DNA of 64,000 nucleotides from Opitutia bacterium (GTDB lineage: Bacteria > Verrucomicrobiota > Verrucomicrobiia > Opitutales > Opitutaceae). The stretch's first letter is position 1, and every line of letters begins with the position of its first letter. Both the position numbers and the translations under genes were made by a program. Below are positions 3,158 to 31,640 of this stretch, piece by piece. The stretch lies in contig JACRHT010000002.1 in assembly GCA_016217545.1 (NCBI GenBank), positions 496,001-560,000 on the forward strand. Direction: 5' to 3'. A model generated the notes under the pieces. It made no database searches, had not been told where the DNA came from, and worked only from the letters and a program-made list of their open reading frames with translations.

Positions 3158-4057
3158 TTGAAAGTCCGGTTCATCTTCAATCCCCACTCCGGTTCCAACC
3201 GCCGCAACCCGCACCTCCGCGACAAAGCGGCTGAGTTCATCGCCCATTGCGGTTGGGACGGTAAAGTCGTCTCCACCGAGCGCCCGCGCCACGCCACCGA
3301 CCTCGCGCGCGCCGCCGTCGACGAGGGCTGCGAACTCGTCGTCGCCATCGGTGGCGACGGCACGATGAACGAGGTCGCCAGCGCCCTCGTGAACACGCCC
3401 GCCGCGTTCGGCCTTATCCCCTGCGGCTCCGGCAACGGTCTCGGCCGCCACCTCGGCATCCCGCGCGCGGGCAAAGGCGCCTTCCGCGCGCTCGCCGAGG
3501 GCGCCGTGACGACCATCGACGCCGGCAAGGTCAACCAGCACCTCTTCTTCTGCGCCGCCGGCACCGGCTTCGAGGCTCTCATCGCCGAGCGCTTCGCCTT
3601 GCTCACGTCGCGCGGCTTCGCCGGCTACCTGAAGGAAAGCGCCAAGGCTTGGTGGAACTACCAGCCCGAGCGCTACACGGTGCACCACGCCGCGGGCAAG
3701 GACACCTTCGACGCCTTCACCCTCGCGATCGCCAACTCCTCCCAATACGGCAACAACGCCTACATCGCGCCCGACGCCTCCGTCAGCGACGGCATGCTGG
3801 ACGTCGTCGCCGTGCCGCACGTGAACGCCTTCCGCGCCGTGCCGCTCGCGATTCGCCTTTTCCACGGCTCGATCAATCGCGTGCCGGACGTCCGGCATTT
3901 CCAAGGCAGCAAATTCGTCATCGAACGCGCGAAGCCGGGTTGGATGCACACCGACGGCGAGCCGCGCGCCGAGACTTCACGCATCGAAGTCTCCGTGCTC
4001 CCCCGCAGCCTGCGCGTGATGGTGCCGCGCACGACGGCGCTGGAAACGCAGTCCTGA
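3158..4057 (+). CDS. Diacylglycerol kinase-like lipid kinase (YegS/DagK family)
   Basis: The product has 299 aa. A TTG start is chosen because MKVRFIFNPHSGS is the canonical family N-terminus. The DAGK catalytic motif GGDGTMNEV is near residue 66 and PCGSGNGLGRHLGI follows near residue 88. The C-terminal beta-rich domain carries the usual VSDGMLDVV segment and ends with a WMHTDGE motif. Members phosphorylate diacylglycerol, ceramide or related lipids, and the substrate cannot be decided here. If it acts on diacylglycerol it would recycle the product of the PlcP-like enzyme encoded 22 kb away, which is only an inference. Confidence 0.88.
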   Translation: MKVRFIFNPHSGSNRRNPHLRDKAAEFIAHCGWDGKVVSTERPRHATDLARAAVDEGCELVVAIGGDGTMNEVASALVNTPAAFGLIPCGSGNGLGRHLGIPRAGKGAFRALAEGAVTTIDAGKVNQHLFFCAAGTGFEALIAERFALLTSRGFAGYLKESAKAWWNYQPERYTVHHAAGKDTFDAFTLAIANSSQYGNNAYIAPDASVSDGMLDVVAVPHVNAFRAVPLAIRLFHGSINRVPDVRHFQGSKFVIERAKPGWMHTDGEPRAETSRIEVSVLPRSLRVMVPRTTALETQS

Positions 4058-11174: not shown

Positions 11175-11810
11175 ATGATTTCGTTCAAGAAGCTGCTGGG
11201 CAAAGAGGAGAAGTTCTACGACCTGTTGGACGCGAGTGCGGAGGAAGCCAAGCTGGCCGCCGGCCTGCTGGCCAAGATCCTCGCCAACGAGAGTGCCGCA
11301 CAGGCCTCGAGCATCCACGACATCATCCAGACGCGCCGCAAGGACAAGCGCATCACCCAGCAGATCACCGAGGAACTCTGCAAAACCTTCGTGACCCCGC
11401 TCGAACGCGAGGATATCGAAGCGCTTTCGCTGGCCCTCTACCGCATTCCGAAGACGGTCGAGAAGATCGTCGAGCGCCTGACCATTTGCCCCGCCCGCGT
11501 CCCGCGCGAGAGCATGCAGCGCCAGGTCGTGCTGCTCGAGGAGGCGGTCGAGAGCGTGCACTTCATGGTCACGCAGTTGCGCAAGGGCACGAATATCGAG
11601 CGCATCCAGGACGCGCACGCCCGCCTGCAATTCGCCGAGGGAGAGGCCGACAAGGTGATGCTCTCCCTGGTCAAGGATCTCTACAACGGCCCCTACGAAG
11701 CCAAGGAAGTCGTCATCCTCATGGAACTCTACGACCTCGTCGAAATGGCCATCGACCGCGCGCGCGACGCCGGCCAGGTCGTGTTCCAGATCATGCTGAA
11801 ATACTCCTGA
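11175..11810 (+). CDS. DUF47 (PhoU-like) protein linked to phosphate transporter
   Basis: The 211-aa all-alpha protein begins MISFKKLLGKEEKFYDLL, the typical N-terminus of DUF47/TIGR00153 proteins. This family is distantly related to PhoU and is nearly always encoded beside a PiT transporter, as here (19 bp upstream of it). It probably modulates the transporter or binds metal-phosphate, and the mechanism is not established. The upstream gap has CGTAAC motifs but no convincing 11-bp-periodic Pho box. Confidence 0.9.
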   Translation: MISFKKLLGKEEKFYDLLDASAEEAKLAAGLLAKILANESAAQASSIHDIIQTRRKDKRITQQITEELCKTFVTPLEREDIEALSLALYRIPKTVEKIVERLTICPARVPRESMQRQVVLLEEAVESVHFMVTQLRKGTNIERIQDAHARLQFAEGEADKVMLSLVKDLYNGPYEAKEVVILMELYDLVEMAIDRARDAGQVVFQIMLKYS

Positions 11811-11829
11811 GCCTCCGCCGACGCAGGTC

Positions 11830-12900
<1,071 letters not shown>

Positions 12901-12926: not shown

Positions 12927-13625
12927 TTACTTCCCTGCGGGCGGAATCTGCTGCTGCACGACCTGTTTGATCTCCTCGGAGTGGCGAACGTCCTTGCCGC
13001 GCACGAGGTAGATCATCTCTTCCGCGATGTTTGTCGCGTGGTCGGCGATGCGCTCGATCGACTTGGAAACGAACATCAACTCGAGCGCCCACGCGATCGT
13101 CTCCGGCTTTTCGATCATGTAGCTCGTGAGGCGGCGATAGACGAGGCGGTTGAGGTTATCGACTTCGGGATCGCGGCGAATGACAGCGAGCGCCTTTTGC
13201 TCATCCTCGTGGACGAAACAGTCGAGCGCGTCGCGCAGCATTTCGAGCGCGATGTTGGCCATGCGCGGGATGTCGGCGTAAAGCTCGACCTTCGGCTCAA
13301 TGGCGAGCTTGCGGGCGCGGCGGGCGATGCTGGTCGCCTCGTCGCCCACGCGCTCGAGGTCGTGCGAGGCCTTCATGCCGACGATGACGAGCCGCAACTC
13401 GGAGGCGATGGGACCGCGGAGCGTCATGTAGCGGATGGCCTCCTCATCGATCTGCACCTCGAACTTGTCGATCTCGTCGTCGGCCGCGATGACCTTGTCG
13501 GCCAGCGCCAGGTCGCCCTCGGCGAGGGCGCGCACGGCGCGGCGGGTCTGGTCGATGGCCCGGTCGCCCATCTGGAGCAAATCGGTGCGGAGAGCTTCAA
13601 GCTCGGCGTCGAAAAAACGTTTCAT
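12927..13625 (-). CDS. phoU: Phosphate transport system regulator PhoU
   Basis: The 232-aa protein has two PhoU three-helix repeats. The metal-binding signatures appear as LERVGDEATSIARR and IERIADHATNIAEE. The start MKRFFDAELEALR is the usual one. PhoU couples Pst transport to PhoR signalling and limits phosphate uptake. It is the last gene of porin-pstSCAB-phoU, 29 bp after pstB. No phoB or phoR lies in the window. Confidence 0.95.
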   Translation of the reverse strand: MKRFFDAELEALRTDLLQMGDRAIDQTRRAVRALAEGDLALADKVIAADDEIDKFEVQIDEEAIRYMTLRGPIASELRLVIVGMKASHDLERVGDEATSIARRARKLAIEPKVELYADIPRMANIALEMLRDALDCFVHEDEQKALAVIRRDPEVDNLNRLVYRRLTSYMIEKPETIAWALELMFVSKSIERIADHATNIAEEMIYLVRGKDVRHSEEIKQVVQQQIPPAGK

Positions 13626-13654: not shown

Positions 13655-14509
13655 TCAACCGAAGCGGCCCGAGACGTAGGCCTCGGTCTGCGGGTTGGCG
13701 GGGTTCATGAAGATGGTGCGAGTCTCGGCGTATTCGACGAGGCGGCCAAGATAGAAGAAGGCCGTCCGGTCGGAGCAACGCGCGGCCTGCTGCATGTTGT
13801 GCGTCACGATGACGATCGTGAACTTCGACTTCAACTCGTGGATGAGTTCCTCGACCTTGGCCGTCGCGATCGGATCGAGCGCCGAACACGGCTCGTCCAT
13901 GAGGATGATCTCCGGTTCGACGGCGATGGCGCGCGCGATGCAGAGGCGCTGCTGCTGGCCGCCGGAGAGGCCGAGCGCGCTTTGGTGCAGGCGATCCTTC
14001 ACCTCGTCCCAGAGCGCGGCGCCGCGGAGGCTTTTTTCCACGACTTCGTCGAGGCGGGACTTGTTCTTCACGCCCTGGATGCGGAGGCCGTAGGTGATGT
14101 TTTCGTAGATCGATTTCGGGAAGGGATTCGACTTCTGGAACACCATGCCGACGCGTTTGCGCAGCTCGATGACGTCAACGCGCGGGTCGTGGATGTCGAC
14201 GCCGTCGATGCGGATCTGGCCGGTGGTGACGCGCGCGCCGTCGATGAGGTCGTTCATGCGGTTGAGGCAGCGGAGCAGCGTGCTCTTGCCGCAGCCGGAC
14301 GGGCCGATGAAGGCGGTGACCTCGCGTTCGCGGATGTTCAGCGTGATATCGTGCAGGGCCTGCGAAGGGCCGTAGCAGAAGTCGACGTCGTCGATCTCGA
14401 TCAACGCGCGCGGCGCCGGCGCGACGCCGTTCGCAGCCGCGCCGGAGGGCATCGGGCCCGTCACGCTGATCGATCGGAGCGAAGGGGACGGAGAAGCGGG
14501 TTCGGACAT
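13655..14509 (-). CDS. pstB: Phosphate ABC transporter ATP-binding protein
   Basis: PstB powers phosphate import through PstC/PstA. Visible motifs are Walker [20 protein letters not shown], the Q-loop [15 protein letters not shown], signature LSGGQQQR, Walker [14 protein letters not shown] and the switch VTHNMQQA. The chosen start [10 protein letters not shown] gives 284 aa, about 30 more than usual because of a Ser/Pro/Ala-rich N-terminal extension. A start six codons further upstream would abut pstA. It lies 11 bp after the pstA stop. Confidence 0.95.
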
Positions 14510-14520
14510 GAGAGTGGCTC

Positions 14521-15564
14521 TTACCATTTGTATTTTTTGCGGAGACGGACGCGGAGCACGACCGAGGTCGCGGCGATCGCGGCCACCGTGAAGAGGAAGA
14601 CGAACGCGGTGCCGTATTGGACGTCGCGCGTGTAGTCGTTCTGGGGGATCTTGGAGGCGACGACGTAGATGTGATACGGCAGCGCCATGACGCCCTGGAA
14701 CACGAAGTCGATCGCATGCTTCACCTGCCAGGGCATCTCGTCGCGCACGACGAACGCGGCAGTGAACATGATCGGGGCCGTCTCGCCGGCGACGCGGGCG
14801 ATCGACAGCACGGAAGACGTGAGAATGCCGGGGAGCGCGTAAGGCAGGACATTGGTGAAGATCGTCTGGAGCTTCGTGGCCCCGAGAGCGAGCGAGCCTT
14901 CGCGGTAGCCCTTCGGCACGGCGCGCAAAGCCTCCTCGGACGCCGTGATGATGATCGGCAGCACCATGAAAGCCAGCGTCAGCCAGCCGGCGAGGAGCGA
15001 CACGCCCATGTTCAGCCCGATGACGAACAGGCCAAAGCCGAACAAGCCGTAGACGATCGACGGCACGCCCGCGAGATTGACGATCGCGAGGCGCAGGAAG
15101 CGGATGAACGGACCGTCGGTCGCGTATTCGCTGAGATAGATCGCGCTGATCACGCCGAGCACGAGGGCGATGGTCATCGAGCCCACGACCAGCAGCACGG
15201 TGCCGACGATGTTCGGGAAGATGCCGCCGGCAGAGTAGACGTAGGTCTCGACGCGGACATCCTTCATTTCGTCGGCGTGCTCGGCCTTGAAGACGCGGAA
15301 GTCGCGATCGCCCATCTGGCGTTTCGCGCCGTTGAGCTCGAAAACGTTCAGCGTCTCCGGCGACTCGGTGAGGAAGGTCGTGTTGATGAACGGCGCCTTG
15401 GTCTGAAAGATCACCGCCCCACCCTTCACGCCGATATCGAGGAAGATCACGGCGGCGCACAGCAGCACGAAATACGTCGCGGCGCGCAGCAGCCAGAACA
15501 CGCCGGCCTCGGCGCGCTTGGCAAAGGTCGGCTGGGCAAAAAGTCGGTCGCTGGGCTTCGTCAT
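14521..15564 (-). CDS. pstA: Phosphate ABC transporter permease PstA
   Basis: The 347-aa inner-membrane permease has the EAA-type cytoplasmic loop [20 protein letters not shown] and a terminal RKKYKW tail. Between TM1 and TM2 lies a periplasmic segment of ~80 residues, longer than in E. coli PstA and reminiscent of the even larger insert in the neighbouring PstC. The start codon overlaps the pstC stop by 1 nt (TAATG), implying translational coupling. Confidence 0.95.
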
Positions 15565-17207
15565 TAGGCGGCGATGCGGTAACGGCGCACGATTTTCTGC
15601 GCGAGCCAGTTGATCAGGAGGGAAATCAGGAAGAGCACCACGCCGACCATGAAGAGCGCGCGGTAATGCAGGCTGCCGCGCACGACTTCGCCCATCTCCT
15701 GCGCGATGATGCCGGTCATCGTGTGCACCGGCTGGAACGCCGTGCCGAGCCCCGCGGTGAAGTCGGGGATCTGGATGCGGTTACCCGCGCAGAGCAGCAC
15801 CACCATCGTCTCGCCGATCACGCGGCCGAGGCCGAGGAGGATGGCGGCCATGATGCCCGACAGCGCGGACGGGATGATGATGTGCACGATCGTCTGCAGG
15901 CGCGTGGAGCCGAGCGCGAGCGAAGCCTCCTTGAAGGAGCGTGGCACGTTGTTGATGGCGTCCTCGGCGAGCGAAAAAATCGTCGGCACGGCCATGAGCG
16001 CGAGCAGGCAGGCGGCGGTCGTGGCGTTGAGGCGCTCGGAGAACGGGAATCCCGGCACCCAATCGAACGCGGGCAGCTGGGAGAGCTTGCGCAGCGATTC
16101 GCCGAGCACCGCGATGCCGAAGAAGCCGAGCACGACGCTGGGAATCGCCGAGACGAACTCGATCGTGGGCTTGATGAACTTCTGCTCGACCGGGCGCGCG
16201 ACTTGGTTGACGTAGATCGCGGCGGCGAGGCCGAGGGGAATCGCGATGAACAGCGCGATCGTCGAAATGAGCAGCGAGCCGAAGAGCAGCGGCAGGATGC
16301 CATACCAATCCTGCCAGAAACTCGCGGTGATCCACTCGCGGCCGAACGCGAAAGCCGTGAGCGACTCGGCGAACGAGACCGGCTTCAGCTGGTCCCAGGC
16401 TTCCATGCGCTTCGTGGCGGCATCGAGTTGCGCGGGAAAGAGGCGCAGCAACTCCGTGAAGCGCGTGAGGCGTGCGTCGAGCGCGGCGTCGCCGAGGCGC
16501 GGCGGGTGCGCGGCAAGTTCGGAAATCGCGGTGGCGAGCGCGACGTTGGCGGTTTTCAGCTCCGGGAGCTGGTCCTTCATTGCCTGCACTTCGGTGCGGA
16601 AATTGATTTTCTCCGGCACCATTTTCTCGATCTGGCGGCGCAGCTCGGCGGCGTGCTCGGGCGTCGCGGTCGGCAGCGCGTTCTCGAGGTCGGCGCGGGC
16701 GTGTTCGGTGTCCTGCGCGACCTTCTGGCGTTCCTTGAGGGACGTCGCGGTCTCGGTCAGCGTGCCGAGGACGGTCTCGTGCGCCGCGATCGCGTCTGCG
16801 ACGCGGTTGGCGTAGGCGTCGAAGTCGGCGAGTTGCGCCTGCGCGGTGGCGATGGGCAGGCCGGCGCGTTGGAGTTGGGTGAGGCGGTCGGAGCGGACGG
16901 CGCCGAGATAGCGGTTGAATGACGAGTAGTCCTCGACTTCGCGTCGCAGGTGATCGGTGAACTCCAAACCGGCGAGGCGGTAAATCTCGAGGTTGTGCCG
17001 GTTCATCGGCACGAAGCCGACGGCGTCGCGGAAGATCGTGAAGGTGATCAACGCCAGCACGAGGATCGAGATGGCGGCGTTGCCTTGGAAGACGACCTTC
17101 GCCACGCGGTCGCCGCTCAACCCGAAGAACCAGCCGCGCTTGCGGCGCAGGAGGGCCTCGCTCGTGGTGAGGCGTGTGGAGCGGACGGTGGTGGCAGTTT
17201 CGGCCAT
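15564..17207 (-). CDS. pstC: Phosphate ABC transporter permease PstC with large periplasmic insert
   Basis: At 547 aa it is far longer than a standard PstC of about 320. The start [11 protein letters not shown] follows a 132-bp gap. After TM1 (~residues 36-56) comes a ~220-residue, charged, heptad-rich region that should form a periplasmic coiled coil. The permease core follows, with the loop [20 protein letters not shown] and the conserved [10 protein letters not shown] segment. The substrate is phosphate, taken from PstS. The gap upstream holds a hairpin and a candidate Pho box. Confidence 0.93.
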
Positions 17208-17258
17208 GAAAGGTGGGGCGATCGTCGTTTCCCGGGCGCGATGCGCGCAACCGGGCCA

Positions 17259-17276
17259 GGTTACGGTTTTGTGACA
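17259..17276 (-). promoter_or_regulatory. Candidate Pho box upstream of pstC
   Basis: Read on the minus strand, TGTCACA-AAAC-CGTAACC places two 7-nt half sites exactly 11 bp apart, matching the pattern of the three-repeat box before the porin gene. It lies ~50 bp before the pstC start and just after a hairpin. No good -10 sequence was found at the expected distance, so a separate pstC promoter is uncertain. Confidence 0.5.
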
Positions 17277-17281
17277 AAGCA

Positions 17282-17312
17282 ACGCCCGCAGCCGGGTGAG
17301 GACTGCGGGCGT
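17282..17312 (-). terminator. Hairpin between pstS and pstC (attenuator-like)
   Basis: ACGCCCGCAG and CTGCGGGCGT form a perfect 10-bp stem around an 11-nt loop, 27 bp after the pstS stop. On the minus strand it is followed by TGCTTTGTC, not a full T run. It could be a leaky terminator or an mRNA-stabilising hairpin that keeps pstS above pstCAB, a known pattern for binding-protein genes. Confidence 0.6.
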
Positions 17313-17339: not shown

Positions 17340-18158
17340 TCAGTTGACCGTGCGGACCGGCACGAAGCCGACCTTACGGACGGTTTTTTGGCCTTCGTCG
17401 CTGAGGGTGAACTCGACGAACTTGGCCGCCTCGCCGCTCGGCTCGCCGTTCGTGTAGTAGAACGTCGGGCGGGCGTAGGGATACTTCTTGGCCTGCACGC
17501 TTTCCTCGGTCGGCAGCGCACCGTCGATCGCGACGGTCTTGATGCCGGGGTCGTGGAGATAGGCGAGGCCGACGTAGCCGATGCCGTTCGGGTTCTTGGC
17601 GACTTCGGCGGCGATCTGCTCGTTGCCGGCCATCTTCTGGGAGGAACCGGCGTAGTCGCGCTTCTTCATCGCGAGCTCCTTGAAGTCCGAATAGGTGCCG
17701 GACGAGGTGTTGCGCGTGTAGACGGAGATCTTGCCCGGCGTGCCGCCGACCTGCGACCAGTCGGTGATGTCGCCGGTGAAGATCTGCTCGACCTGGCGCT
17801 TGGTGAGCGCGGAGACGCCGTTGCCCTGGTTCACGATCACGCCGATGCCGTCGAAGGCGACGATCGTGGGCTTGAGCGTGACGCCCTTGGCGAGGGCGGC
17901 GGAGGACTCGGTCGGCTTGGCGCGACGGGACGACATGCCGATCTGGGCGGTGCTGTCGATGATGGCGGAGATGCCGGTGGTGGAGCCTTCGGCGGCGATC
18001 TCGAACGCGACGTCACCGTTGCGGGCCTTGTAGTCTTCGGCGAGCATCGGGACGAGCTTGGCGCCGAGCGTGTCGGAGCCCTTGATGACGATCTTCTCGG
18101 CGGCGATGGCGCTGGTGGCGACGATCGCGGCGAGGGAGAGGGAGAGGAATTGTTTCAT
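17340..18158 (-). CDS. pstS: Phosphate ABC transporter substrate-binding protein PstS
   Basis: The 272-aa periplasmic protein has a cleavable signal peptide (MKQFLSLSLAAIVATSAIAA). Phosphate-contact segments are KGSDTLG near the new N-terminus, SSRRAK, and TRNTSSGTYSDF, where Ser/Thr and Arg bind phosphate in this family. It delivers phosphate to PstCA. It is 25 bp downstream of the porin gene, so it is transcribed from the Pho-type promoter at 19556-19599. Confidence 0.95.
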   Translation of the reverse strand: MKQFLSLSLAAIVATSAIAAEKIVIKGSDTLGAKLVPMLAEDYKARNGDVAFEIAAEGSTTGISAIIDSTAQIGMSSRRAKPTESSAALAKGVTLKPTIVAFDGIGVIVNQGNGVSALTKRQVEQIFTGDITDWSQVGGTPGKISVYTRNTSSGTYSDFKELAMKKRDYAGSSQKMAGNEQIAAEVAKNPNGIGYVGLAYLHDPGIKTVAIDGALPTEESVQAKKYPYARPTFYYTNGEPSGEAAKFVEFTLSDEGQKTVRKVGFVPVRTVN

Positions 18159-18183: not shown

Positions 18184-19503
18184 TTAGAACTTCACGACGA
18201 GGTCGAGCTGCAGGAGCTGCGAGTGGTCGAGGTTGGCGAGCGAGTAGGTCAGGTTTTCCTGCTTCGCGGTGGTGTGGAAGTAGGTGGCGTTCAGGCTGGC
18301 GAAGTCGGTGAGGTTGTAGCTCGCCTGGAACTTGAAGCCTTCCTGGTTGAGCTTGCCGAAGGCGAAGTCGGAGTCGTTCAGGTTGACGTCGACCGAGCCG
18401 AGGCCGATGGAGCGGTAGTCGAGCTTGAGGCTGTAGTCGCCCTGCGTCTTGCCGGTGCCGAAGCTGTAGCCGACGCCGAAGAGCCAGGAGAACGGGTCCT
18501 TGTCCCAGACGGTGGTGTTGAGGCCGTAGACCTTGGAGACGCGGCGGTTCGCCTCGAGATTGTAGGCCGAATCCCAATAGACCTTCATCGCGGTGCCAGC
18601 GCCGTTGACGTTGAGCCAGTTCACCTCGCCGGCGAAGGTCACGATGCTGAGGCCGCGCGTGGAGCCGAGAAACGGGGTCTCGTTCGTGGTGTTGTTCGCG
18701 ATGTTGGACTGGTTGTAGATCATGAAACCGGGCGCGAGGACGACGCTGTTCGGGACGTTGCCGATCGAGTCCTTGCCGAACCAGTGGGTGTAGACGGCCT
18801 GCTGGGCGAAGAGCCAGGCGTCGCGGCCGGTCGGGCCGGCGTTCTTCTCGTCGCGGTCATCCATGATGTCCTGGAGCGCGCGGATTTCGAAGGTGTCCTT
18901 GCCCGCGAGCTGCTTCTTGTAGATTTCCGCGACGCCTTGCGGGTTGATGTCGGCGTCCCAGACGAGGTCGGTCGTGTAGAGCGGGTTCTTCTGCTTGCCG
19001 AGAACGACACCGAAGTTCGGGTTCACCTGCCAGCCGATGTAGGCGCGGGCGAGGAAGATCGAGTAGTCGTCGTTGCCGCCCTGGAAGGTCTGGTTGCCGG
19101 AATCGGCGGCTTGGCCGGTCTCGAGCGCGAAGCCGGCGGTCCAGCCCTTTTGGAGCGTGACGTCGCCGTTGAAGCGGAAGCGGAAACGCTCGCGCGTGCG
19201 CTCGTTCGTGACGGTCGGGCCGGTCGCGGAGGCGGGCGCCTGCGTCTCGTATTGGTGACGCATGCGGAGGTCGCCGGAGAGTTTGAAGTCGGCGATGGAG
19301 CCGCTGAGGTTCAGCTTGCCGGCGGAGGTGTTGGCGGCGAAGTCCTTCGTCAATTCGGCGCGGAGCTCCTCGGCCTCCTGGTCGTTCAGCACGCCCTTCT
19401 TCACGAGCAGGTCGATGAGGGCGCCGCTGTCTTGCGCGAGCGCGACGCTGGCAGCGAAGAGCGCGGCGGCGGTCGCGAGCAGTTTGGATTTCAGGTTGAA
19501 CAT
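18184..19503 (-). CDS. Putative outer-membrane porin heading the pst operon
   Basis: The 439-aa protein starts with a signal peptide (MFNLKSKLLATAAALFAASVALAQ). A short helical region follows (LLVKKGVLNDQEAEELRAEL), then ~370 residues of alternating beta strands ending in LDLVVKF, a C-terminal Phe barrel signature. It resembles the family annotated as putative porin. As first gene of porin-pstSCAB-phoU behind a Pho-type promoter, it is best read as the phosphate-starvation outer-membrane channel, functionally parallel to OprP or PhoE but not clearly homologous. Anion selectivity is an inference. Confidence 0.8.
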   Translation of the reverse strand: MFNLKSKLLATAAALFAASVALAQDSGALIDLLVKKGVLNDQEAEELRAELTKDFAANTSAGKLNLSGSIADFKLSGDLRMRHQYETQAPASATGPTVTNERTRERFRFRFNGDVTLQKGWTAGFALETGQAADSGNQTFQGGNDDYSIFLARAYIGWQVNPNFGVVLGKQKNPLYTTDLVWDADINPQGVAEIYKKQLAGKDTFEIRALQDIMDDRDEKNAGPTGRDAWLFAQQAVYTHWFGKDSIGNVPNSVVLAPGFMIYNQSNIANNTTNETPFLGSTRGLSIVTFAGEVNWLNVNGAGTAMKVYWDSAYNLEANRRVSKVYGLNTTVWDKDPFSWLFGVGYSFGTGKTQGDYSLKLDYRSIGLGSVDVNLNDSDFAFGKLNQEGFKFQASYNLTDFASLNATYFHTTAKQENLTYSLANLDHSQLLQLDLVVKF

Positions 19504-19555: not shown

Positions 19556-19599
19556 AGAATAGAGGACGATTGTTACGGCTTCGTGACGGCCGTGTGACG
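19556..19599 (-). promoter_or_regulatory. Pho-box promoter of the porin-pst operon
   Basis: On the minus strand the order is CGTCACA, CGTCACG, CGTAACA, each separated by 4 nt, giving an exact 11-bp period (plus-strand starts 19593, 19582, 19571). Nine nt after the last repeat comes TATTCT (19561-19556), a good -10 box with no -35, as expected of a PhoB-activated promoter. The porin start codon is ~50 bp downstream. This is the clearest regulatory site in the window. Confidence 0.85.
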
Positions 19600-19703
19600 A
19601 ACGCGGAAAACAAAACAGCGCGCCGTGGCGCGGCAGGGCCGGTTGGAAACCGGCCCCAAAGCAGTCTCATTCGCACGCTTGAGTATCGCGCGACACGGAA
19701 AGG

Positions 19704-22476: not shown

Positions 22477-23142
22477 CTAACCGTTCGTGTAATAACGCCG
22501 GCGCGCGCGCACCTGAACGAGCTTGAGCTCGGGCAAGATCACCGCGGTCAGCGCACCGCCGAGGACGCACCCGGTGTCGATGCCGAGCGTCCACTTGGTC
22601 TCGGCAACCTTGTCGCGCGGGGTGTGGCCGTAGACGACGAATGGCGGTCCCTTCCACAATTCCGACCAATGCGGCGCGCCGGGCGCCTCGGAGCGCTTGC
22701 GCGGCTCGCCGTCCTCGTCGACGACTTGGATGCGCGTCACGACGCGCGCGGGCTGCTTGCGCCAAGGGACGTCCGGCAAAAATCCGCCGTGCACCAACAC
22801 GATGTCGTGCTCCGCGTCCTCGAAGGTCAGCGGCATCGCCTCGAGGTAGTCCCACGCCTTGCCGTTGAGCTGCTCGAGCGTCGCGTAGTCGTATTTCTTG
22901 AGATGGCTCGGGTCGTCGGTCTTGCGGTAGTTGATCAGCCGCAGCTCGTGGTTGCCGAGCAGGGACGCGGTGGCGTGGCGGCGCGCGAGCTGGATGACGC
23001 GCGCGCTGTCCGGCCCGCGATTGATCAAATCGCCCAGGAGCACCACGCGGTCGTCGTCGCGCAGCGCCAGTTTTTCGAGCAACTCCTCGAGCTCGTCGGC
23101 GCAGCCGTGGATGTCGCCGATGGCGATCAGTCGTCCGCTCAT
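22477..23142 (-). CDS. PPP-family metallophosphatase (Ser/Thr phosphatase or ApaH-like)
   Basis: The 221-aa protein has all five PPP motifs: GDIHGC, GDLINRGPDS, GNHE, HGG and GHTP followed by GIDTGC. These bind two metal ions and hydrolyse phosphomonoesters of phosphoproteins or Ap4A. Its size suits bacterial PrpA/ApaH-like enzymes, and substrate cannot be decided from sequence. It lies 7 bp downstream of ppk and is surely co-transcribed, suggesting a role connected to phosphate or nucleotide metabolism. Confidence 0.88.
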   Translation of the reverse strand: MSGRLIAIGDIHGCADELEELLEKLALRDDDRVVLLGDLINRGPDSARVIQLARRHATASLLGNHELRLINYRKTDDPSHLKKYDYATLEQLNGKAWDYLEAMPLTFEDAEHDIVLVHGGFLPDVPWRKQPARVVTRIQVVDEDGEPRKRSEAPGAPHWSELWKGPPFVVYGHTPRDKVAETKWTLGIDTGCVLGGALTAVILPELKLVQVRARRRYYTNG

Positions 23143-23149
23143 TGATGGT

Positions 23150-25309
23150 TCAGAGCTGCGGGGCCACCTCGACGGCCGACTCGGCGCGCGCGGTGGCTTC
23201 CATCATGAAATAGGCCTGCGCCGAAAAGGCCATCTCGCCCTCGCCGCGCGGCACGGGAGCGTAGACCGCATCGGGCTGGAGGCGGCGCGCGTCGACGTTG
23301 TCGCGCAATTCGGCCGGCAGGATGTCGTCGACGATGCGGCGGCGCAGATCGGGATCGTAGATCGGGAACAGCGCCTCGACGCGGCGGAAGAAGTTGCGCG
23401 TCATCCAGTCGGCGCTGCCGGCGAAGACCAGGGGCGAGCCGCCGTTTTCGAAATAGTAGATGCGCGCGTGCTCGAGGTAGCGACCGACGATGTTGCGCAC
23501 GCGGATGTTGTCGCTCTGGCCCTTGATGCCGGGCGCGAGGCAACACGTCGCACGCACCACGAGGTCGATCTGCACGCCGGCCTGCGAGGCGGCGTAGAGG
23601 TTGTCGATCGTCACGGGGTCGACGAGTTTGTTCATCTTCGCGATGATGCGCGCGGGCCGGCCGGCGGCGGCGTGCGCGGCCTCGGCCCCGATGAGTTCCT
23701 GGATGCGCGCATGGAGGTTGAACGGCGCGACGAGCAAATGCTTGAACTCGGGCGTGCGGCCGAAGCCCGTGAGCGCGTTGAAGAGCTGCGCCACTTCCGC
23801 CGTGAGGTCGACGTTGGCGGTGAGCAGGCTCAGGTCGGTGTAGAGCCGGGCGGTCTTCGGGTTGTAGTTGCCCGTGCCGAGGTGCACGTAGCGGCGCAGG
23901 CCGTCGGCTTCCTGCCGGACGACGAGGCTGCATTTGCAATGCGTCTTGTGTCCCACGAGGCCGAACACCACGTGCACGCCCGCCTCCTCGAGTTCGCGGG
24001 CCCACTTGATGTTGTTCGCCTCATCGAAACGCGCCTTCAGCTCGACGAGCGCCGTGACCTGCTTGCCCCGGCGCGACGCCTCGATGAGCGAACGCACGAT
24101 GGGCGAATCGCCGCTGGTGCGGTAGAGCGTCTGCTTGATCGCGAGCACCTGCGGGTCCGTCGCGGACTGCTCAATGAAATCGACCACCGGCGTGAACGAC
24201 TCGTAGGGATGATGCAGCAACACGTCGCGCTCGCGGATCACGTCGAACAGCAGGGGCTTCGCGCGCAGGAAGGGCATCTCCGCGGGCACGAAGGGCGTGT
24301 ATTTCAGGTCGGGTCGGTCGGTGCGCTCCCAGAGGCTCATCAAACGCAGCAGGTTCAACGGCCCGCGCGTGCGGAAGACGTTTTCCTCGGGCAACGCGAG
24401 ATGACGGCAAAGCGTGGCGAACGTGTCGTCGTCCACGCCGTCCTCGATCTCGAGGCGCACGGCCGCGCCGCGCCGGAGGTTGCGGAGTTCTTCCTCGATC
24501 TTCTTGAGCAGGTTCTCGACTTCCTCCTCGTCGATGTAGAGGTCGCTGTTGCGCGTGACGCGGAAGGCGTGGGCGCTCCGGATCGTGTAGCCCGGGAACA
24601 GCGCGCCGGCACAAAGCTTGATGATGTCGCTGAGGAAGACGAAGCGCTGCACCTTCGCGTCGCCGTCGAGCAGGATGAGGCGCGGCAGGCTGCGCGGCAC
24701 CGGCAGGATCGCGAGGTGCGACTCGATCTCCGGCGTCTCCGGATTGTCGAGCGTGAGCAGCACGTTCATCGTCTTGTTGCCGAGCTGCGGGAACGGATGC
24801 GCCTGGTCGATCGCGAGCGGCGTGAGCACCGGCAGGACGTTCGTGGCGAAGTAGTTTTCCACCCACGCGCGCTGCTTCGCGTCGAGCTGCGCGGGGGTGA
24901 GGAACACGATGCCCTCCTTCGCGAGCGCGGGCAGCAGCAATTCGTGCCAACAGCGATACTGGTCGCGCACGAGCTTCTCCATCCCGGCGCGAATCTGCCG
25001 CAACTGCTCGCCCGGCGTCAGGCCGTCGATGCTCGGCTCGCCGCCAGGCGAATCCTGCTGCTGCTGCAGGCCGGCGACGCGGATCTCGAAGAACTCGTCG
25101 ATGTTCGAGCTCACGATCGCGAGGAACTTCACGCGCTCCAGCAACGGGTTGGCCGCGCTCTGCGCCTGCTCGAGCACCCGGCGGTTGAAGGCGAGGTAGC
25201 TCAGCTCACGGTTGAAATATTGCCGGCTGCGGCCGGCACTTCCCGCGAGGGCGCGACCGACGGCAGCGGTGATCTTGACGGAACGCTTCGGACGTTTGGC
25301 GGAACTCAT
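23150..25309 (-). CDS. ppk: Polyphosphate kinase 1
   Basis: The 719-aa protein polymerises the gamma-phosphate of ATP into polyphosphate. The N-terminal domain contains YFNRELSYLAFNRRVLEQA and SSNIDEFFEIRVAGL. The catalytic His that becomes phosphorylated lies in RRYVHLGTGNYNP, and the second conserved His is in RYLEHARIYYFENGG. NVDARRLQPDAVY near the C-terminus is also typical. It is divergent from the glycosyltransferase operon, and the shared intergenic region contains Pho-box-like repeats. Start MSSAKRPKRS gives a basic N-terminal tail before the conserved fold. Confidence 0.96.
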   Translation of the reverse strand: MSSAKRPKRSVKITAAVGRALAGSAGRSRQYFNRELSYLAFNRRVLEQAQSAANPLLERVKFLAIVSSNIDEFFEIRVAGLQQQQDSPGGEPSIDGLTPGEQLRQIRAGMEKLVRDQYRCWHELLLPALAKEGIVFLTPAQLDAKQRAWVENYFATNVLPVLTPLAIDQAHPFPQLGNKTMNVLLTLDNPETPEIESHLAILPVPRSLPRLILLDGDAKVQRFVFLSDIIKLCAGALFPGYTIRSAHAFRVTRNSDLYIDEEEVENLLKKIEEELRNLRRGAAVRLEIEDGVDDDTFATLCRHLALPEENVFRTRGPLNLLRLMSLWERTDRPDLKYTPFVPAEMPFLRAKPLLFDVIRERDVLLHHPYESFTPVVDFIEQSATDPQVLAIKQTLYRTSGDSPIVRSLIEASRRGKQVTALVELKARFDEANNIKWARELEEAGVHVVFGLVGHKTHCKCSLVVRQEADGLRRYVHLGTGNYNPKTARLYTDLSLLTANVDLTAEVAQLFNALTGFGRTPEFKHLLVAPFNLHARIQELIGAEAAHAAAGRPARIIAKMNKLVDPVTIDNLYAASQAGVQIDLVVRATCCLAPGIKGQSDNIRVRNIVGRYLEHARIYYFENGGSPLVFAGSADWMTRNFFRRVEALFPIYDPDLRRRIVDDILPAELRDNVDARRLQPDAVYAPVPRGEGEMAFSAQAYFMMEATARAESAVEVAPQL

Positions 25310-25365
25310 GGATTGGCCGTTTCTGGTAACGGTGCGCCGCGCCCACGGCCAGCGGCAACCCCTCG

Positions 25366-25383
25366 CGTCACCAGATTGTTACT
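25366..25383. promoter_or_regulatory. Pho-box-like repeat pair between ppk and the glycolipid operon
   Basis: On the plus strand CGTCACC-AGAT-TGTTACT places two 7-nt elements at an 11-bp period. The site is 57 bp upstream of the ppk start and 124 bp upstream of the glycosyltransferase start, so it could serve either gene. Each half matches the porin-promoter repeat imperfectly and no clear -10 follows. Confidence 0.45.
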
Positions 25384-25406
25384 TTAGTCCGTCCCGCAGC
25401 CGGTTT

Positions 25407-25446
25407 GTTCACGCATTCGTCACGGGTTCGCCGCGAAACAGTCACG
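25407..25446 (+). promoter_or_regulatory. Pho-box-like array upstream of the glycolipid operon
   Basis: GTTCACG (25407), CGTCACG (25418) and AGTCACG (25440) are all in one 11-bp phase, with a degenerate CGCCGCG at the intermediate position 25429. The array lies 61 bp before the proposed glycosyltransferase start. Orientation matches the porin-pst Pho box. A convincing -10 was not found. Confidence 0.55.
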
Positions 25447-25506
25447 CGCGCCCGCGATGCTCCGTCTGCTCGACGACCGGCCGCGCCGTCGCCCGGGCGC
25501 CTCTCT

Positions 25507-26712
25507 TTGCACCTCGTCCTCGTCACCGAAACCTACGCTCCCGAAATCAACGGCGTCGCCATGACGCTCGGCCGCCTCGTCGACGGCCTCGCCGCGCGCG
25601 GTCATCGCGTGACCGTCGTCCGCCCGCGCCAGCGCCACGAATCGCCGCGCTACACCACGACGCAGCGCCTCGCCTGCCGCCAAGTGCGCCTGCCGGGCTT
25701 CCCGCTGCCGGGCTATCCGCAATTGCGCGTGGGCTTCCCCGCCCGCCGCCGCCTGCGGCAACTCTGGACGCTCAACCCGCCCGACATCGTGCACGTCGCC
25801 ACCGAGGGCCCGCTCGGCTCGTCGGCCATCACGGCGGCGCTCGAACTCGGCCTGCCCGTCACTTCGAGCTTTCACACCAACTTCGACCAATACGCGCGCG
25901 ACTACCGCCTCGGCTGGCTCAAGCCGCTCGTCACCGCATGGCTCCGCCGCGTGCACAACCGCACGCGCCGCACCTTCGTCCCCACGCACGACCTGCGCGA
26001 CCGCCTCGCGGCCGAGGGCTACGCGAACCTCCGCCTGCTCTCGCGCGGCGTCGACACCCGGCTCTTCACACCCGAGCGCCGCGATCAGGACCTCCGCGCC
26101 TCCTGGGGCGCCGCGGCGGATGACCTCGTGATCGTCCACGTCGGCCGCATGGCCGCGGAAAAAAACTACCCGCTGCTCTTCCGCGCCTACGACGCCATCA
26201 AGGCCGCGCAACCCCGCGCCCGCCTCGTGCTCGTTGGCGACGGCCCGATGCTCGCGACCTACCAGCGGCAGCGGCCCGACGCCGTGTTCACCGGCTTCTA
26301 CACCGGCGTCAACCTCGCGCGCCACTACGCCAGCGGCGATCTCTATCTGCACGCGAGCTTCACGGAGACGTTCGGCAACGTCGTTACTGAAGCGCTCGCC
26401 AGCGGGCTCGCCGTCAGCGCCTTCGACTACGCCGCCGCGCACGAATTCATCCGCCACGAACAAAACGGCCTCGTCGCTCGTCCCGGTGACGAGGGCGCCT
26501 TCATCGCCCACGCCGTGCGCCTCGCCAACGACGCCGCGCTCCGCGCCCGCGTTGCCCGCGCCGGCCGCGCCACCACCGCCCGCCTCTCGTGGGACGCCGT
26601 GGTCGACGGCTTCGCCCACGACCTCGCCGAGGCGATCGACGAGCACCGCGGCACCCGCGCGCCGGTCCGTGTGCTCTCAACTCTCAACTCCCAGCTCTCA
26701 ACTTCGCCATGA
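25507..26712 (+). CDS. GT4-family glycosyltransferase, probably lipid-directed (Agt/MgtA-like)
   Basis: The product has 401 aa. A TTG start is proposed because HLVLVTETYAPEINGVAMTL is the typical GT4 N-terminus. The 34 upstream in-frame residues are Arg/Pro-rich and overlap the Pho-like array. Family features are SFHTNFDQYARDY, VGRMAAEKNYPLL, VGDGPM and the nucleotide-sugar motif ETFGNVVTEALASG. Close families glycosylate diacylglycerol or phosphatidylinositol-type acceptors. The next two genes encode a PlcP-like phospholipase C and an MGDG-synthase-like enzyme, so glycosylation of diacylglycerol is the favoured role. The C-terminal tail VLSTLNSQLSTSP is encoded by a 7-nt tandem repeat. The stop overlaps the next start (ATGA). 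Confidence 0.82.
   Translation: MHLVLVTETYAPEINGVAMTLGRLVDGLAARGHRVTVVRPRQRHESPRYTTTQRLACRQVRLPGFPLPGYPQLRVGFPARRRLRQLWTLNPPDIVHVATEGPLGSSAITAALELGLPVTSSFHTNFDQYARDYRLGWLKPLVTAWLRRVHNRTRRTFVPTHDLRDRLAAEGYANLRLLSRGVDTRLFTPERRDQDLRASWGAAADDLVIVHVGRMAAEKNYPLLFRAYDAIKAAQPRARLVLVGDGPMLATYQRQRPDAVFTGFYTGVNLARHYASGDLYLHASFTETFGNVVTEALASGLAVSAFDYAAAHEFIRHEQNGLVARPGDEGAFIAHAVRLANDAALRARVARAGRATTARLSWDAVVDGFAHDLAEAIDEHRGTRAPVRVLSTLNSQLSTSP
26674..26701. repeat. Heptanucleotide tandem repeat (CTCTCAA)x4
   Basis: Four units, CTCTCAA, CTCTCAA, CTCCCAG and CTCTCAA, lie in the last codons of the glycosyltransferase gene, 7 bp before the plcP-like start codon. Seven is not a multiple of three, so a unit gain or loss would change the tail frame. 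The same unit recurs at 50834-50864. Confidence 0.85.
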
Positions 26713-27551
26713 GCAAACCCGTCCTCCGCGTCCGCACCGCCATCCTCTCCGACGTGCACCTCGGCACGCCGCACTCGAAGGCCGACGAGGCCACGCACTT
26801 CCTCAAGCACGTCCGCTGCGACCGCCTCATCCTCAACGGCGACATCATCGACGGCTGGCGCCTCACCCGCGACGGCCGCTGGACAAAGGCTCACACGCGG
26901 TTCATGCGCCGCGTGCTCACGATGGTGCAGAAGAAGGACACCGACGTCGTCTACCTACGCGGAAACCACGACGACTTCCTCGCCCGGCTCCTCCCGATGC
27001 AATTCGAGCGCATCCAACTCGTCGAGGACTGCGTGCTCGAGACGCCGCGCGGCCGCTACCTCGTGCTCCACGGCGACGTCTTCGACGGCGTGATCAAGAA
27101 CATGGTCTTCCTCGCCCACCTCGGCGACATGGGCTACTCGCTCCTCCTGCGCCTCAACCGCGCCTACAACTGGTGGCGCAAGGTGCGCGGCAAGGAATAC
27201 TTCTCGCTCAGCCAGGCGATCAAGGCGCGCGTGAAGCAGGCGGTCTCCTTCGTCGGCAAATTCGAGGACCAAGTCGCCGCCCTCGCCCGCTCCCGCGGCT
27301 GCGTCGGCGTTATTTGCGGCCACATCCACACGCCCGCCGACAAGCAGATCGACGGCATCCACTACCTCAACTCCGGCGACTGGGTGGAAACCATGAGCGC
27401 CATCGTCGAACACGAGGACGGCCGCTTCGAGCTGATCTACTTCAAGGATTTCCTCGCGCAGTTCCCGATGCCGCAGGCCGAGACCGCGAGCGACGACGCC
27501 GACGCGACCGCGCTTCCGCCCACCCTCGCCCTCGCCGCCTTCGGCGCGTGA
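26709..27551 (+). CDS. PlcP-like metallophosphoesterase (UDP-2,3-diacylglucosamine hydrolase homologue)
   Basis: The 280-aa calcineurin-like phosphoesterase has metal ligands SDVHLG, GDIIDGW, RGNHDDF, LHGDVFD and CGHIHTP, then NSGDWVE. The pattern (SDVHLGT with a following AD, DIIDGW, GHIH, GDWVE) is that of the LpxH relatives characterised in Sinorhizobium as PlcP, a phospholipase C that releases diacylglycerol from phospholipids under phosphate starvation. The alternative, a lipid A biosynthetic LpxH/LpxI role, is less likely because the gene is coupled (4-bp ATGA overlap) between two glycosyltransferases. It acts at the inner membrane. Confidence 0.82.
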   Translation: MSKPVLRVRTAILSDVHLGTPHSKADEATHFLKHVRCDRLILNGDIIDGWRLTRDGRWTKAHTRFMRRVLTMVQKKDTDVVYLRGNHDDFLARLLPMQFERIQLVEDCVLETPRGRYLVLHGDVFDGVIKNMVFLAHLGDMGYSLLLRLNRAYNWWRKVRGKEYFSLSQAIKARVKQAVSFVGKFEDQVAALARSRGCVGVICGHIHTPADKQIDGIHYLNSGDWVETMSAIVEHEDGRFELIYFKDFLAQFPMPQAETASDDADATALPPTLALAAFGA

Positions 27552-27555
27552 TCCC

Positions 27556-28701
27556 ATGCGCCGCATCCTGATCCTCAGCGCCAGCTACGGCGAAGGCCAT
27601 AATAGCGCCGCCCGCGCGCTCCGCTCCGCCTTCGCCGAACATCCCGGCGTCGAGGTCGAGGTGTTTGACCTGTTCGCGCAGAAGGCCCCGCGCCTCGACA
27701 AGATTTCCCGCGGCGCCTACCTGCGCGTCATCAACCACGCGCCACTCCTCTGGAGCAGTTTCTACCAATGGCTCGACCGTTCGCCGCGCGCCCCGCTCCT
27801 CCTGCGCGCGCTCCACGGCCACGCCCAACTGCTCGCGCAAGTCCTCCGCGACCGCCGCCCCGACGCGATCCTGAGCACCTATCCGGTCTACGCCTGGCTG
27901 GTGCAGCAGCTCCGCGCCAGCGGCTACGCCGTTCCGCCGCTCTACACCGTCGTCACCGACGCGCTCACCATCAACTCGCTCTGGTATCGCGCGCCGTCGG
28001 AGGGATGGTTCGTCACCGACAGCACTTCCGCCACGTTCCTCCACAAAGCAAATGTGCCCGCGAGCAAGGTGCACGTTTCCGGATTCCCCGTCGCCGCGGC
28101 ATTTCCGGACCGGGATCCGACGCTCCTGCCGCCCGATCCCGCGCGCACGCGCCAGCGCCGCATTCTCTACATGATCAACTCCGGCCGCACCCGCGCGCTC
28201 GAGACTGCGCAGGCGCTCACGCTTTGGTCGAACTGGCAGGTCACCTTCACCGTGGGACGCGACGAGGTGTTGAAACGTCAGCTCGAGCACCTCGTGCGCA
28301 CCGCGCCCGCCCACTGCGAAGTCCTCGGCTGGACCGATCGCATCCCGGAACTGCTCATGACCCACCACGTCGTCATCAGCAAAGCCGGCGGCGCCACCAC
28401 GCAGGAGGCGATCAACGCACTTTGCCCGATGGTCGTGAATCAGGTCGTCCCCGGTCAGGAGGAAGGCAACTGGCAACTCCTGCGAGCGCACCACGCCGGC
28501 GCGCTCGCCCAGACGCCGCACGAGATCTCCCAAACGCTCCACGCCATCTTCGCCCACGACGGCGAGCGCTGGCGCGAAATGCGCGCCGGCCTGCGCCGCA
28601 TCGCCCGCCCCACCGCCGCACGCGACATCGCCACGCACGTGCTCGCGCGCGTCGGAGCCTCTCCGGCGCTCACTGCCGCGGCGCGAGTTCCGAACGGATG
28701 A
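27556..28701 (+). CDS. MGDG synthase-like (GT28) glycosyltransferase
   Basis: The 381-aa protein begins MRRILILSASYGEGHNSAARAL, the N-terminal motif of monogalactosyldiacylglycerol synthase and UgtP-type processive diacylglycerol glucosyltransferases. The C-terminal half holds the nucleotide-sugar loop SKAGGATTQEA and VVPGQEEGN. The enzyme should transfer a hexose to diacylglycerol or to a glycosyl-diacylglycerol. It starts 4 bp after the PlcP-like gene, completing a three-gene operon. The 3' end overlaps the convergent waaA gene by 32 bp. Confidence 0.85.
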   Translation: MRRILILSASYGEGHNSAARALRSAFAEHPGVEVEVFDLFAQKAPRLDKISRGAYLRVINHAPLLWSSFYQWLDRSPRAPLLLRALHGHAQLLAQVLRDRRPDAILSTYPVYAWLVQQLRASGYAVPPLYTVVTDALTINSLWYRAPSEGWFVTDSTSATFLHKANVPASKVHVSGFPVAAAFPDRDPTLLPPDPARTRQRRILYMINSGRTRALETAQALTLWSNWQVTFTVGRDEVLKRQLEHLVRTAPAHCEVLGWTDRIPELLMTHHVVISKAGGATTQEAINALCPMVVNQVVPGQEEGNWQLLRAHHAGALAQTPHEISQTLHAIFAHDGERWREMRAGLRRIARPTAARDIATHVLARVGASPALTAAARVPNG

Positions 28702-30439: not shown

Positions 30440-31489
30440 TCAACGACCGAGCACCCAGCTGAAGATCAGCGGCGCGACGATCGTGGCGTCGGACTCGACG
30501 ATGAACTTCGGCGTTTTCTCGCCGAGTTTGCCCCACGTGATCTTCTCGTTCGGCACGGCGCCGGAGTAGCTGCCGTAGCTCGTGGTCGAGTCGCTGATCT
30601 GCGCGAAGTAGCCCCAGAGCGGCACGCCGGTGCGGCCGAGGTCCTGGTGCAGCATCGGCACGACGCAAATCGGGAAGTCGCCCGCGATGCCGCCGCCGAT
30701 CTGGAAGAAGCCGATCGAGCCCTCACCGTTGCGGAGGAGCTTCGCCGTCTTCGTATACCACTCGGCGAGCCACACCATGTATTCGATGCCGGTGCGGACG
30801 GTGTGCACGTTCTTGATTTCGCCGGTGACGCAGCGGCCGGCATACATGTTGCCGAGCGTGGCGTCTTCCCAACCCGGGACGATGATCGGGAGGTTCTTCT
30901 CGCAGGCGGCGAGCATCCACGAATTCTTCGGGTCGATCTGGTAAGACTTCTTCAGCTTACCCGACCGGAGAATTTTATACATGAACTCATGCGGGAAAAA
31001 CCGCTGCCCGCTCTGGTCGGCCGCGACCCACTCCTCGGCCACGGCGGCCTCGATGCGGCGCATCGCCTCGCCCTCGGGAATACAGGTGTCGGTGACGCGG
31101 TTCATGTGCCGGTCGAGCAGCGCCTGCTCGTCGGCGGCGGTGAGATGGCGGTAATGCGGCACGCGCTCGTAGTAGTCGTGCGCCACGAGGTTGAAGATGT
31201 CCTCCTCGAGGTTGGCGCCGGTGCAGACGATGGCGTGGACCTTGTCCTGGCGGATCATTTCGGCGAGCGTGATGCCGAGTTCGGCGGTGGACATGGCGCC
31301 GGCAATGGTGACGAGCATCTTGCCGCCGGCGGTGAGGTGCGCCTCGTAGCCCTTCGCGGCATCGAGCAGCGCCGCCGCGTTGAAGTGACGGTAGTTGTGC
31401 GCGATGAACTGGGAGACCGGTCCCTTCTTCTTCGCGAGGGCCGCGTTGATGTCCTCGGGACGTTTCGTCAGGCGTTTGGCTTTGCTCAT
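30440..31489 (-). CDS. Deoxyhypusine synthase family protein
   Basis: The product has 349 aa. Start MSKAKRLTKRPEDINAA is chosen as the beginning of conserved sequence. NAD-binding segments such as TIAGAMSTAELG and CTGANLEEDIFNL, and the C-terminal SGAVPNEKITWGKL, match the deoxyhypusine synthase fold. The Lys in WGKL corresponds to the catalytic lysine of the eukaryotic enzyme. Bacteria lack eIF5A, so the protein should not make hypusine. Related bacterial proteins are thought to be homospermidine-synthase-like, transferring the aminobutyl group of spermidine to another amine. The real substrate is unknown. Confidence 0.88.
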   Translation of the reverse strand: MSKAKRLTKRPEDINAALAKKKGPVSQFIAHNYRHFNAAALLDAAKGYEAHLTAGGKMLVTIAGAMSTAELGITLAEMIRQDKVHAIVCTGANLEEDIFNLVAHDYYERVPHYRHLTAADEQALLDRHMNRVTDTCIPEGEAMRRIEAAVAEEWVAADQSGQRFFPHEFMYKILRSGKLKKSYQIDPKNSWMLAACEKNLPIIVPGWEDATLGNMYAGRCVTGEIKNVHTVRTGIEYMVWLAEWYTKTAKLLRNGEGSIGFFQIGGGIAGDFPICVVPMLHQDLGRTGVPLWGYFAQISDSTTSYGSYSGAVPNEKITWGKLGEKTPKFIVESDATIVAPLIFSWVLGR

Positions 31490-31640
31490 TTTGCCGAGTA
31501 GAAAGCCCGTGCGCGATGGGGTCACTAAAATTCTCGCCCGCACAGCCGATGCAGCGGTGCCACGCCAGTCGGAGATCTCACCCGAATTGCCTATGGCCGC
31601 GCACTTGCCACGACGGGCCAGCTCGTAGATGGTTCCGGCC

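Follow-up and report, generated by a model that had tools for sequence, protein, structure and literature searches.

Introduction

The closest described counterpart of the system discussed here is the PlcP-Agt pathway of Proteobacteria (Sinorhizobium meliloti, Phaeobacter MED193, Pseudomonas aeruginosa PA3219/PA3218, Methylosinus OB3b), in which PlcP degrades phospholipids to diacylglycerol (DAG) and Agt-type glycosyltransferases refill the membrane with glycolipids under phosphate limitation. PlcP is a manganese-dependent enzyme. The homologues of S. meliloti and P. aeruginosa (PA3219-PA3218) are given as validated in PMC8528852. Three adjacent genes in a 64-kb stretch of DNA from an Opitutia bacterium (Verrucomicrobiota; assembly GCA_016217545.1, contig JACRHT010000002.1, positions 496,001 to 560,000; hereafter the window) encode a GT4 glycosyltransferase, a PlcP-type metallophosphoesterase and a GT28 glycosyltransferase. 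Judged from sequence and gene context, they very probably constitute a Pho-regulated operon for PlcP-type phospholipid-to-glycolipid remodelling. The host genome comprises 5.09 Mb and is 99.9% complete.

Like the proteobacterial systems, the window combines a PlcP member, an adjacent GT4 and a Pho-box-like promoter. It differs from them in gene order (GT4 then PlcP, the reverse of plcP-agt), in a GT4 of a probable sister clade with Glu in place of Asp and in the additional GT28; relatives of the window differ further by an extra gene of the DAG-kinase family or by a fusion of GT4 and PlcP. The original prediction regarded the dual-glycosyltransferase form as an interesting variant, but there is a precedent for it: in Sebastian et al. 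(PMC4796936), plcP arrangement types 3 and 5 have further glycosyltransferases beside plcP, one of which is confirmed to yield di- and triglycosyl-DAG. These types use, however, processive Pgt enzymes, which are assigned to GT21 in PMC8231724, whereas the window has a GT28 of the monogalactosyldiacylglycerol (MGDG)-synthase/UgtP kind. Verrucomicrobia are named among the clades in the introduction of PMC4796936, the words fusion and kinase are absent from its main text, and PlcP is reported as absent from verrucomicrobial methanotrophs in PMC9239053. For the GT4-PlcP fusion, the Glu-type GT4 and the GT28/kinase forms, searches listing papers of an open-access library brought up no report. PlcP remodelling is already known, and the operon, as interpreted here, would be a variation on an established way of surviving phosphate shortage.

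Organization of the gene block

The three genes form one block on the plus strand, as tightly coupled as originally predicted, and their Pfam families agree with the predicted identities. The GT4 gene (25507..26712; PF13439/PF13692/PF00534), whose Agt-like, sister-clade product is proposed to transfer the first sugar to DAG, most plausibly starts at TTG 25507, because 30 of 31 tblastn alignment rows (window included) begin at this residue. Its end overlaps in an ATGA with the ATG of the PlcP-type gene (26709..27551; PF00149), which is proposed to encode an intracellular phospholipase C. The GT28 gene (27556..28701; PF06925, MGDG_synth) follows 4 nt after the PlcP stop; its MGDG-synthase/UgtP-like product is proposed to carry out a second or alternative sugar transfer, and its last bases are shared with the 3' end of waaA (28670-29953, minus strand), which is convergent. 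On the other side, the block is divergent from the polyphosphate kinase gene ppk1 (23150..25309, minus strand; TIGR03705, 922 bits), which likewise had been predicted.

The phosphoesterase

The phosphoesterase has a predicted LpxH-like fold yet belongs by sequence with PlcP. Its match to the homologue of S. meliloti reaches 197 bits, as opposed to 20 bits for Escherichia coli LpxH; the S. meliloti protein is encoded near acyl-homoserine lactone synthase and LuxR genes, a neighbourhood that we take to be the place of SMc00171. It shares 41-45% identity with five members from Proteobacteria and 32% with that of Thioclava, and the metal motifs DxH, GD, GNHD, HGD and GHxH are invariant in all 18 aligned sequences, that of S. 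meliloti included. The genome holds no second match of this kind. In the tree, it falls into a Verrucomicrobiota/Bacteroidota clade (SH-aLRT 99) beside proteobacterial rows, among them the protein of S. meliloti and one of P. aeruginosa with GT4 and cyclase genes directly behind it, a context that matches PA3219-PA3218 and in which the cyclase gene is presumably PA3217. Many inner forks of this tree are weak, and because LpxH is represented by a single row on a branch of ~10 changes per site, the tree shows only that LpxH is far. The block also holds the kind of neighbour by which PlcP is recognized, a non-phosphorus-lipid gene, in the form of GT4 and GT28.

A profile search of the genome yielded no LpxH over cut-off, whereas LpxI is found elsewhere in the genome (146 bits), and lipid A synthesis is covered by this predicted LpxI. 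An LpxH/lipid A identity of the protein was rejected because of the presence of LpxI, the bit scores and the gene context; the grouping with LpxH that would have spoken against the predicted PlcP-like nature did not appear.

Among 31 plasmid matches of the phosphoesterase, 24 carry the label ‘UDP-2,3-diacylglucosamine diphosphatase’ and the remaining 7 are without a listed feature; the analysis suggests that this label is wrong for the PlcP-type family. One P. aeruginosa plasmid (L187; NZ_CP137508.1) has a plcP-agt1-like neighbourhood, with a context like that of the chromosomal PA3219-PA3218.

The GT4 glycosyltransferase and GT4-PlcP fusions in relatives

The window GT4 scores 122 bits against the protein in the PA3218 context and 118-162 bits against ten other GT4 proteins encoded behind plcP, compared with at most 61 bits against 12 loci of other GT4 proteins of its own genome. 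Nine of these eleven plcP-following rows have proteobacterial titles and two (L163, L167) are from unclassified bacteria. In a quick tree, for which further named GT4 families did not serve as references, the 29 rows from Verrucomicrobiota and the 11 rows in the Agt position fall into two adjacent groups (SH-aLRT 96 and 88); five of six paralogues from the window's genome lie outside both, and the sixth (L174, on a long branch) lies on their side. The catalytic His is kept in the window GT4, whereas the Asp of Agt is replaced by Glu: Asp is present in 11 of 11 Agt-position rows, and of the 58 rows from Verrucomicrobiota, which include three additional copies of the window gene, all but L111 (57) have Glu. 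According to PMC8231724, GTcp of Pelagibacter has the dyad His104-Asp256, its Asp is essential and the exchange D256E costs >90% of the activity. Given this loss and the Asp/Glu split between the groups, the verrucomicrobial GT4s look like a separate Glu-type subfamily, and donor or mechanism may differ. Strict membership in Agt was rejected because of the missing Asp. The predicted Agt-type partner is thereby upheld in part: it is probably a sister of the proteobacterial Agt proteins, but the marker residue is different. The window GT4 is probably an Agt-like sister that works like Agt.

The strongest sequence evidence for GT4 and PlcP as consecutive steps is that both occur as one polypeptide in more distantly related Verrucomicrobiota. 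A domain scan of open reading frames (ORFs) detected the two in a single frame at 6 of 80 named loci, including those of Rubritalea marina DSM 17716 and Persicirhabdus sediminis KCTC 22039, and two of two loci fetched for their long open frames (L196, L197) are further fusions. The fused frames have about 650-700 codons; Pfam reports both domains in three of three fusions submitted, and both catalytic residue sets are intact in six aligned fusions. In family f23, to which L196 and L197 belong, the open frame that holds PlcP is 640 codons or longer in 27 of the 28 PlcP-bearing genomes of the phylum sample described below, two of these 27 frames having been read. Because at least two fusions come from culture-collection strains, an assembly error is an unlikely source; two fusion loci labelled Akkermansia muciniphila are metagenome-assembled genomes. 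A structure model of the fusion (pLDDT 70, pTM 0.51, 6 sequences) was of too low quality for positioning the two domains and was set aside.

The GT28 glycosyltransferase

The GT28 matches PF06925 with 71 bits (cut-off 25), a domain that it shares with plant MGD1 and with UgtP, a processive diacylglycerol beta-glucosyltransferase. Its residues 2-366 of 381 align with MGD1 (4wyi, E 5e-23), the GEGH and GQEEGN segments included, and it aligns with much of UgtP (9wde, E 3e-19); PF04101 is unreported at E 0.001, though the C-terminal half aligns with both enzymes. In contrast to them, the GT28 belongs to an uncharacterised bacterial subfamily, stays below the NCBIfam equivalog cut-offs and stands in a block with PlcP.

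In a phylum sample of 387 genomes, with matches counted at E <= 1e-30, PlcP is present in 117 and GT28 in 93. Within the window's family, GT28 lies at most 4 kb from plcP in 17 of 18 GT28-bearing genomes (the miss, G189, is a 29% match), and it is present in 18 of 30 members with PlcP versus none of six sampled members without PlcP (hypergeometric p 0.0095). The same holds for three of three genomes in family f19 of the same order, with GT28 at most 4 kb from plcP. The association of GT28 with PlcP is characteristic of these two families.

Three genomes of the same class have no PlcP match at this threshold but a GT28 of this family that continues in frame into a PHP-like phosphoesterase domain (L188:3198-5165, L189:3478-5442, L190:3333-6314), assigned as PF02811 by Pfam in L188 and by eye in L189 and L190. 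This fused domain might be a non-homologous stand-in for PlcP.

Gene order in relatives and the DAG-kinase-family gene

A search of 57 genomes, among them that of the window, found PlcP in 39, and larger stretches were fetched around 38 other loci. Conserved synteny, proposed earlier as a check, is indeed seen: the block recurs in Opitutaceae relatives and is linked to pst genes. The window's order, GT4-PlcP-GT28, is present in eight of the 38 relatives (L031-L038), GT4-GT28-kinase-PlcP in another eight, GT4-PlcP in seven, GT4-GT28-PlcP and GT4-kinase-PlcP in three each, PlcP-GT28 in two and kinase-PlcP in one (L057); in L063, a GT4 follows 2.5 kb behind PlcP, and five loci have PlcP without a GT4, GT28 or kinase partner. 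One of the two PlcP-GT28 loci, L039 from the window's genus, has no GT4 recognisable by model, and its GT28 and kdtA frames are broken.

The DAG-kinase-family gene immediately precedes plcP in 12 of the 38 relatives' loci and in 9 of the 80 named loci; in the one protein tested, the domains are PF00781 and PF19279. The only PF00781 match of the window's genome is a YegS-type gene (3158..4057, plus strand) about 21-22 kb from the operon. Upstream of it lies a weak Pho-box-like repeat, CCGTCAC-N4-TTGTTGC (score 8.1), for which no Pho-box claim is made.

In other loci, a DAG-kinase-family gene is found downstream of plcP (L126, L146, L166) or divergent from it (L129, L167, L169, L171). Neighbours of plcP from this family extend to Bacteroidota and Proteobacteria as well as one unclassified bacterium, a hint that the PlcP-kinase link is more widespread.

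Pho-box-like repeats and the phosphate island

As expected of a Pho-regulon member, the first gene of the operon is preceded by direct repeats of the PhoB-box type, which are predicted PhoB sites. A fixed matrix for the half-sites, consistent with the published PhoB box CTGTCATNNNNCTGTCAT, was used to score repeats over ~128,000 positions, i.e. both strands of the window. Repeat A, GCGTCAC-N4-TTGTTAC (25365..25382, plus strand), ranks 7 among these positions and repeats B (25406..25445, plus strand) rank 5; both are present in several relatives. The half-sites of B are TGTTCAC at 25406, TCGTCAC at 25417 and, in phase, CAGTCAC at 25439, the half-site expected between the latter two being degenerate. 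The 7-nt elements in an 11-bp phase of the original prediction thus exist, but the positions given there were one base off and the intermediate repeat is degenerate; repeat A was absent from that list.

In all, seven two-repeat sites in the window score at least as high as the site at 25365. Stretches of ~200 bp with one such site make up 0.9% and those with two 0.1%, the latter consisting of the operon's pair alone. The best triple repeat on either strand of the window lies upstream of porin-pstS (19572..19600, minus strand), and the best double between pstS and the likely pstC start (17260..17277, minus strand). In relatives, the upstream regions of the porin score 12.3-14.3 in four of six cases, and 9.9 and 6.8 in the other two.

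When 61 GT4 upstream regions were compared with 200 dinucleotide shuffles each, p <= 0.05 was reached in 19 and p <= 0.01 in 11. All nine loci with the window's gene order (the window and L031-L038; eight in the window's genus, L036 in another) have p <= 0.03; L039 was left out of this test. Controls in which GT4 stands behind plcP, i.e. not in a promoter position, were significant in none of six cases (p 0.40-0.97). The mean forward score is 9.4 at 11-bp spacing versus 6.1-7.4 at 9, 10, 12 and 13 bp, and 6.6 on the reverse strand. Chance as the origin of the repeats was rejected for the loci with the window's gene order only.

The 14 kb before the operon contain pit, phoU, pst and ppk genes. 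On the minus strand, ppk is followed downstream by a gene for an ApaH/PrpE-like metallophosphoesterase (22477..23142; below NCBIfam cut-offs). The pst block begins with the porin (18184..19503; PF16930) and continues with the phosphate-binding protein PstS (17340..18158; TIGR02136 over cut-off with 228 bits, PF12849), a PstC-like permease (15564..17282; PF00528), the true start of which is probably downstream of 17260, and a PstA-like permease (14521..15564; PF00528). PhoU follows (12927..13622; PF01895, 150.9 bits), and between it and PstA a PstB-like ATPase was recognized by eye (in frame 13655..15460). On the plus strand, 11175..12900 encodes a DUF47 protein and a Pit-type phosphate transporter (PF01865, PF01384). 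The best PhoB candidate is located elsewhere in the genome (245 bits, cut-off 296) and is followed by an ORF that by eye resembles a sensor kinase, the two making up a candidate PhoB-PhoR pair. Among the 38 relatives, pstS lies inside the fetched stretch in seven, in differing arrangements, and ppk is divergent from the operon in L031-L035 and L038 as well.

The plcP-ppk link recurs beyond Verrucomicrobiota: on a Mitsuaria plasmid, ppk comes next after plcP, and in three Bacteroides/Phocaeicola contigs plcP precedes ppk by 1.3-2.1 kb. On the other side of the operon, a deoxyhypusine-synthase-family protein (30443-31780, minus strand; PF01916) does not reach the cut-off of any of the seven NCBIfam models listed.

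Proposed function and alternatives

From this arrangement, we infer the substrates, the products, the order of sugar transfer and the induction by phosphate limitation as follows. At low phosphate, the candidate PhoB would switch on the operon along with pst and possibly ppk. The PlcP-type enzyme would then hydrolyse phospholipids at the cytoplasmic face to DAG and the phosphorylated head group, and the GT4 would add one sugar to DAG, with UDP-glucose, galactose or glucuronate as possible donors. The GT28, as a relative of UgtP and MGD1, would either add a second, beta-linked sugar or make its own beta-monoglycosyl-DAG; the outcome would be phosphate-free membrane lipids. Retaining GT4 enzymes form alpha links and inverting GT28 enzymes beta links; a mixed diglycosyl-DAG or two parallel monoglycosyl-DAGs are therefore possible. 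A more specific version, to which we give somewhat less than even chances, is a separate verrucomicrobial branch of the pathway, in which the Glu-type GT4 makes alpha-monoglycosyl-DAG, the GT28 extends it to a mixed alpha/beta diglycosyl-DAG and the bifunctional fusion, confined to one branch, channels DAG between its active sites.

Several observations weigh against a remodelling operon of this kind. In the window's genus, 4 of 13 genomes, including one that is 98% complete, gave no PlcP match. The GT4 is without the catalytic Asp of Agt, and its best NCBIfam match is N-acetylglucosaminyl-phosphatidylglycerol synthase (NF053787, 152 bits, cut-off 480). The GT28 does not reach the cut-offs for diglucosyl-DAG synthase (PRK13609, 170 of 500 bits; PRK13608, 87 of 557), 12 of 30 PlcP-bearing members of the window's family are without GT28, and outside families f1 and f19 GT28 is near plcP in only 2 of 72 GT28-bearing genomes, 26 of which have no PlcP match. 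The 24 best matches of the predicted PlcP model (pLDDT 82) to folds in the Protein Data Bank (PDB) are LpxH, with a TM score of about 0.5 and 19-23% identity. As to the promoter, three of the window's top seven sites (42799, 60290, 60161) lie away from recognised phosphate genes, 60290 being inside a long ORF and 60161 near the start (60156) of a minus-strand ORF, a region in which no family search was made, and the signal is patchy elsewhere, with p <= 0.05 in 10 of the 46 remaining upstream regions. The weak GT28-PlcP link outside the two families leaves the confidence in a remodelling operon unchanged because this rests mainly on PlcP, GT4 and their fusion.

The fold matches invite the alternative that the phosphoesterase is the cell's UDP-2,3-diacylglucosamine hydrolase, with LpxH function, and that the operon, like waaA next to it, serves lipid A/lipopolysaccharide synthesis. 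LpxH ranks first among the fold matches, a PDB sequence search gives a weak match to it as well, and its models are among the weak family matches (PRK05340, 40 bits); waaA/kdtA, tail-to-tail with the operon, is also present in 12 of the 38 relatives' stretches. With LpxH as best match, however, the fold does not separate PlcP from LpxH. The 25.7 bits for TIGR01854 are far from the LpxH cut-off of 190, the motif is GNHD instead of the GNRD of E. coli LpxH, and LpxI is present in the genome; no waaA was detected in 26 of the 38 stretches, some of which end early. Together with the pst linkage and the Pho-box-like repeats, this makes a lipid A role very improbable.

Also improbable, if a little less remote, is that the GT4, and possibly the GT28, glycosylate phosphatidylglycerol or another phospholipid and thus give amino- or glyco-phospholipids. 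The GT4 does score higher with NF053787 than with the model for alpha-monoglucosyl-DAG synthase (96 bits, cut-off 400), but both matches are under cut-off, and the GT4 adjoins, or is fused to, an enzyme whose validated relatives supply DAG, in a phosphate-starvation context. A lipid-turnover cycle, in which PlcP makes DAG, a DAG kinase returns it to phosphatidic acid and glycolipids are minor, would account for the kinase gene directly before plcP in relatives and for the sole PF00781 match that the window's genome retains. The kinase is outside the operon, however, in the loci with the window's gene order, and in 11 of the 12 loci with the kinase before plcP, all but L057, one or two glycosyltransferases stand beside it, so that such a cycle is quite improbable as the principal function.

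Implications

As a phospholipid-to-glycolipid remodelling operon, the three genes would extend PlcP-type remodelling from mostly proteobacterial models to Verrucomicrobiota, where it would proceed with different enzymes, a Glu-type GT4, a GT28 and an associated gene of the DAG-kinase family. The natural GT4-PlcP fusion would represent a directly testable route from phospholipid to glycolipid on one polypeptide.

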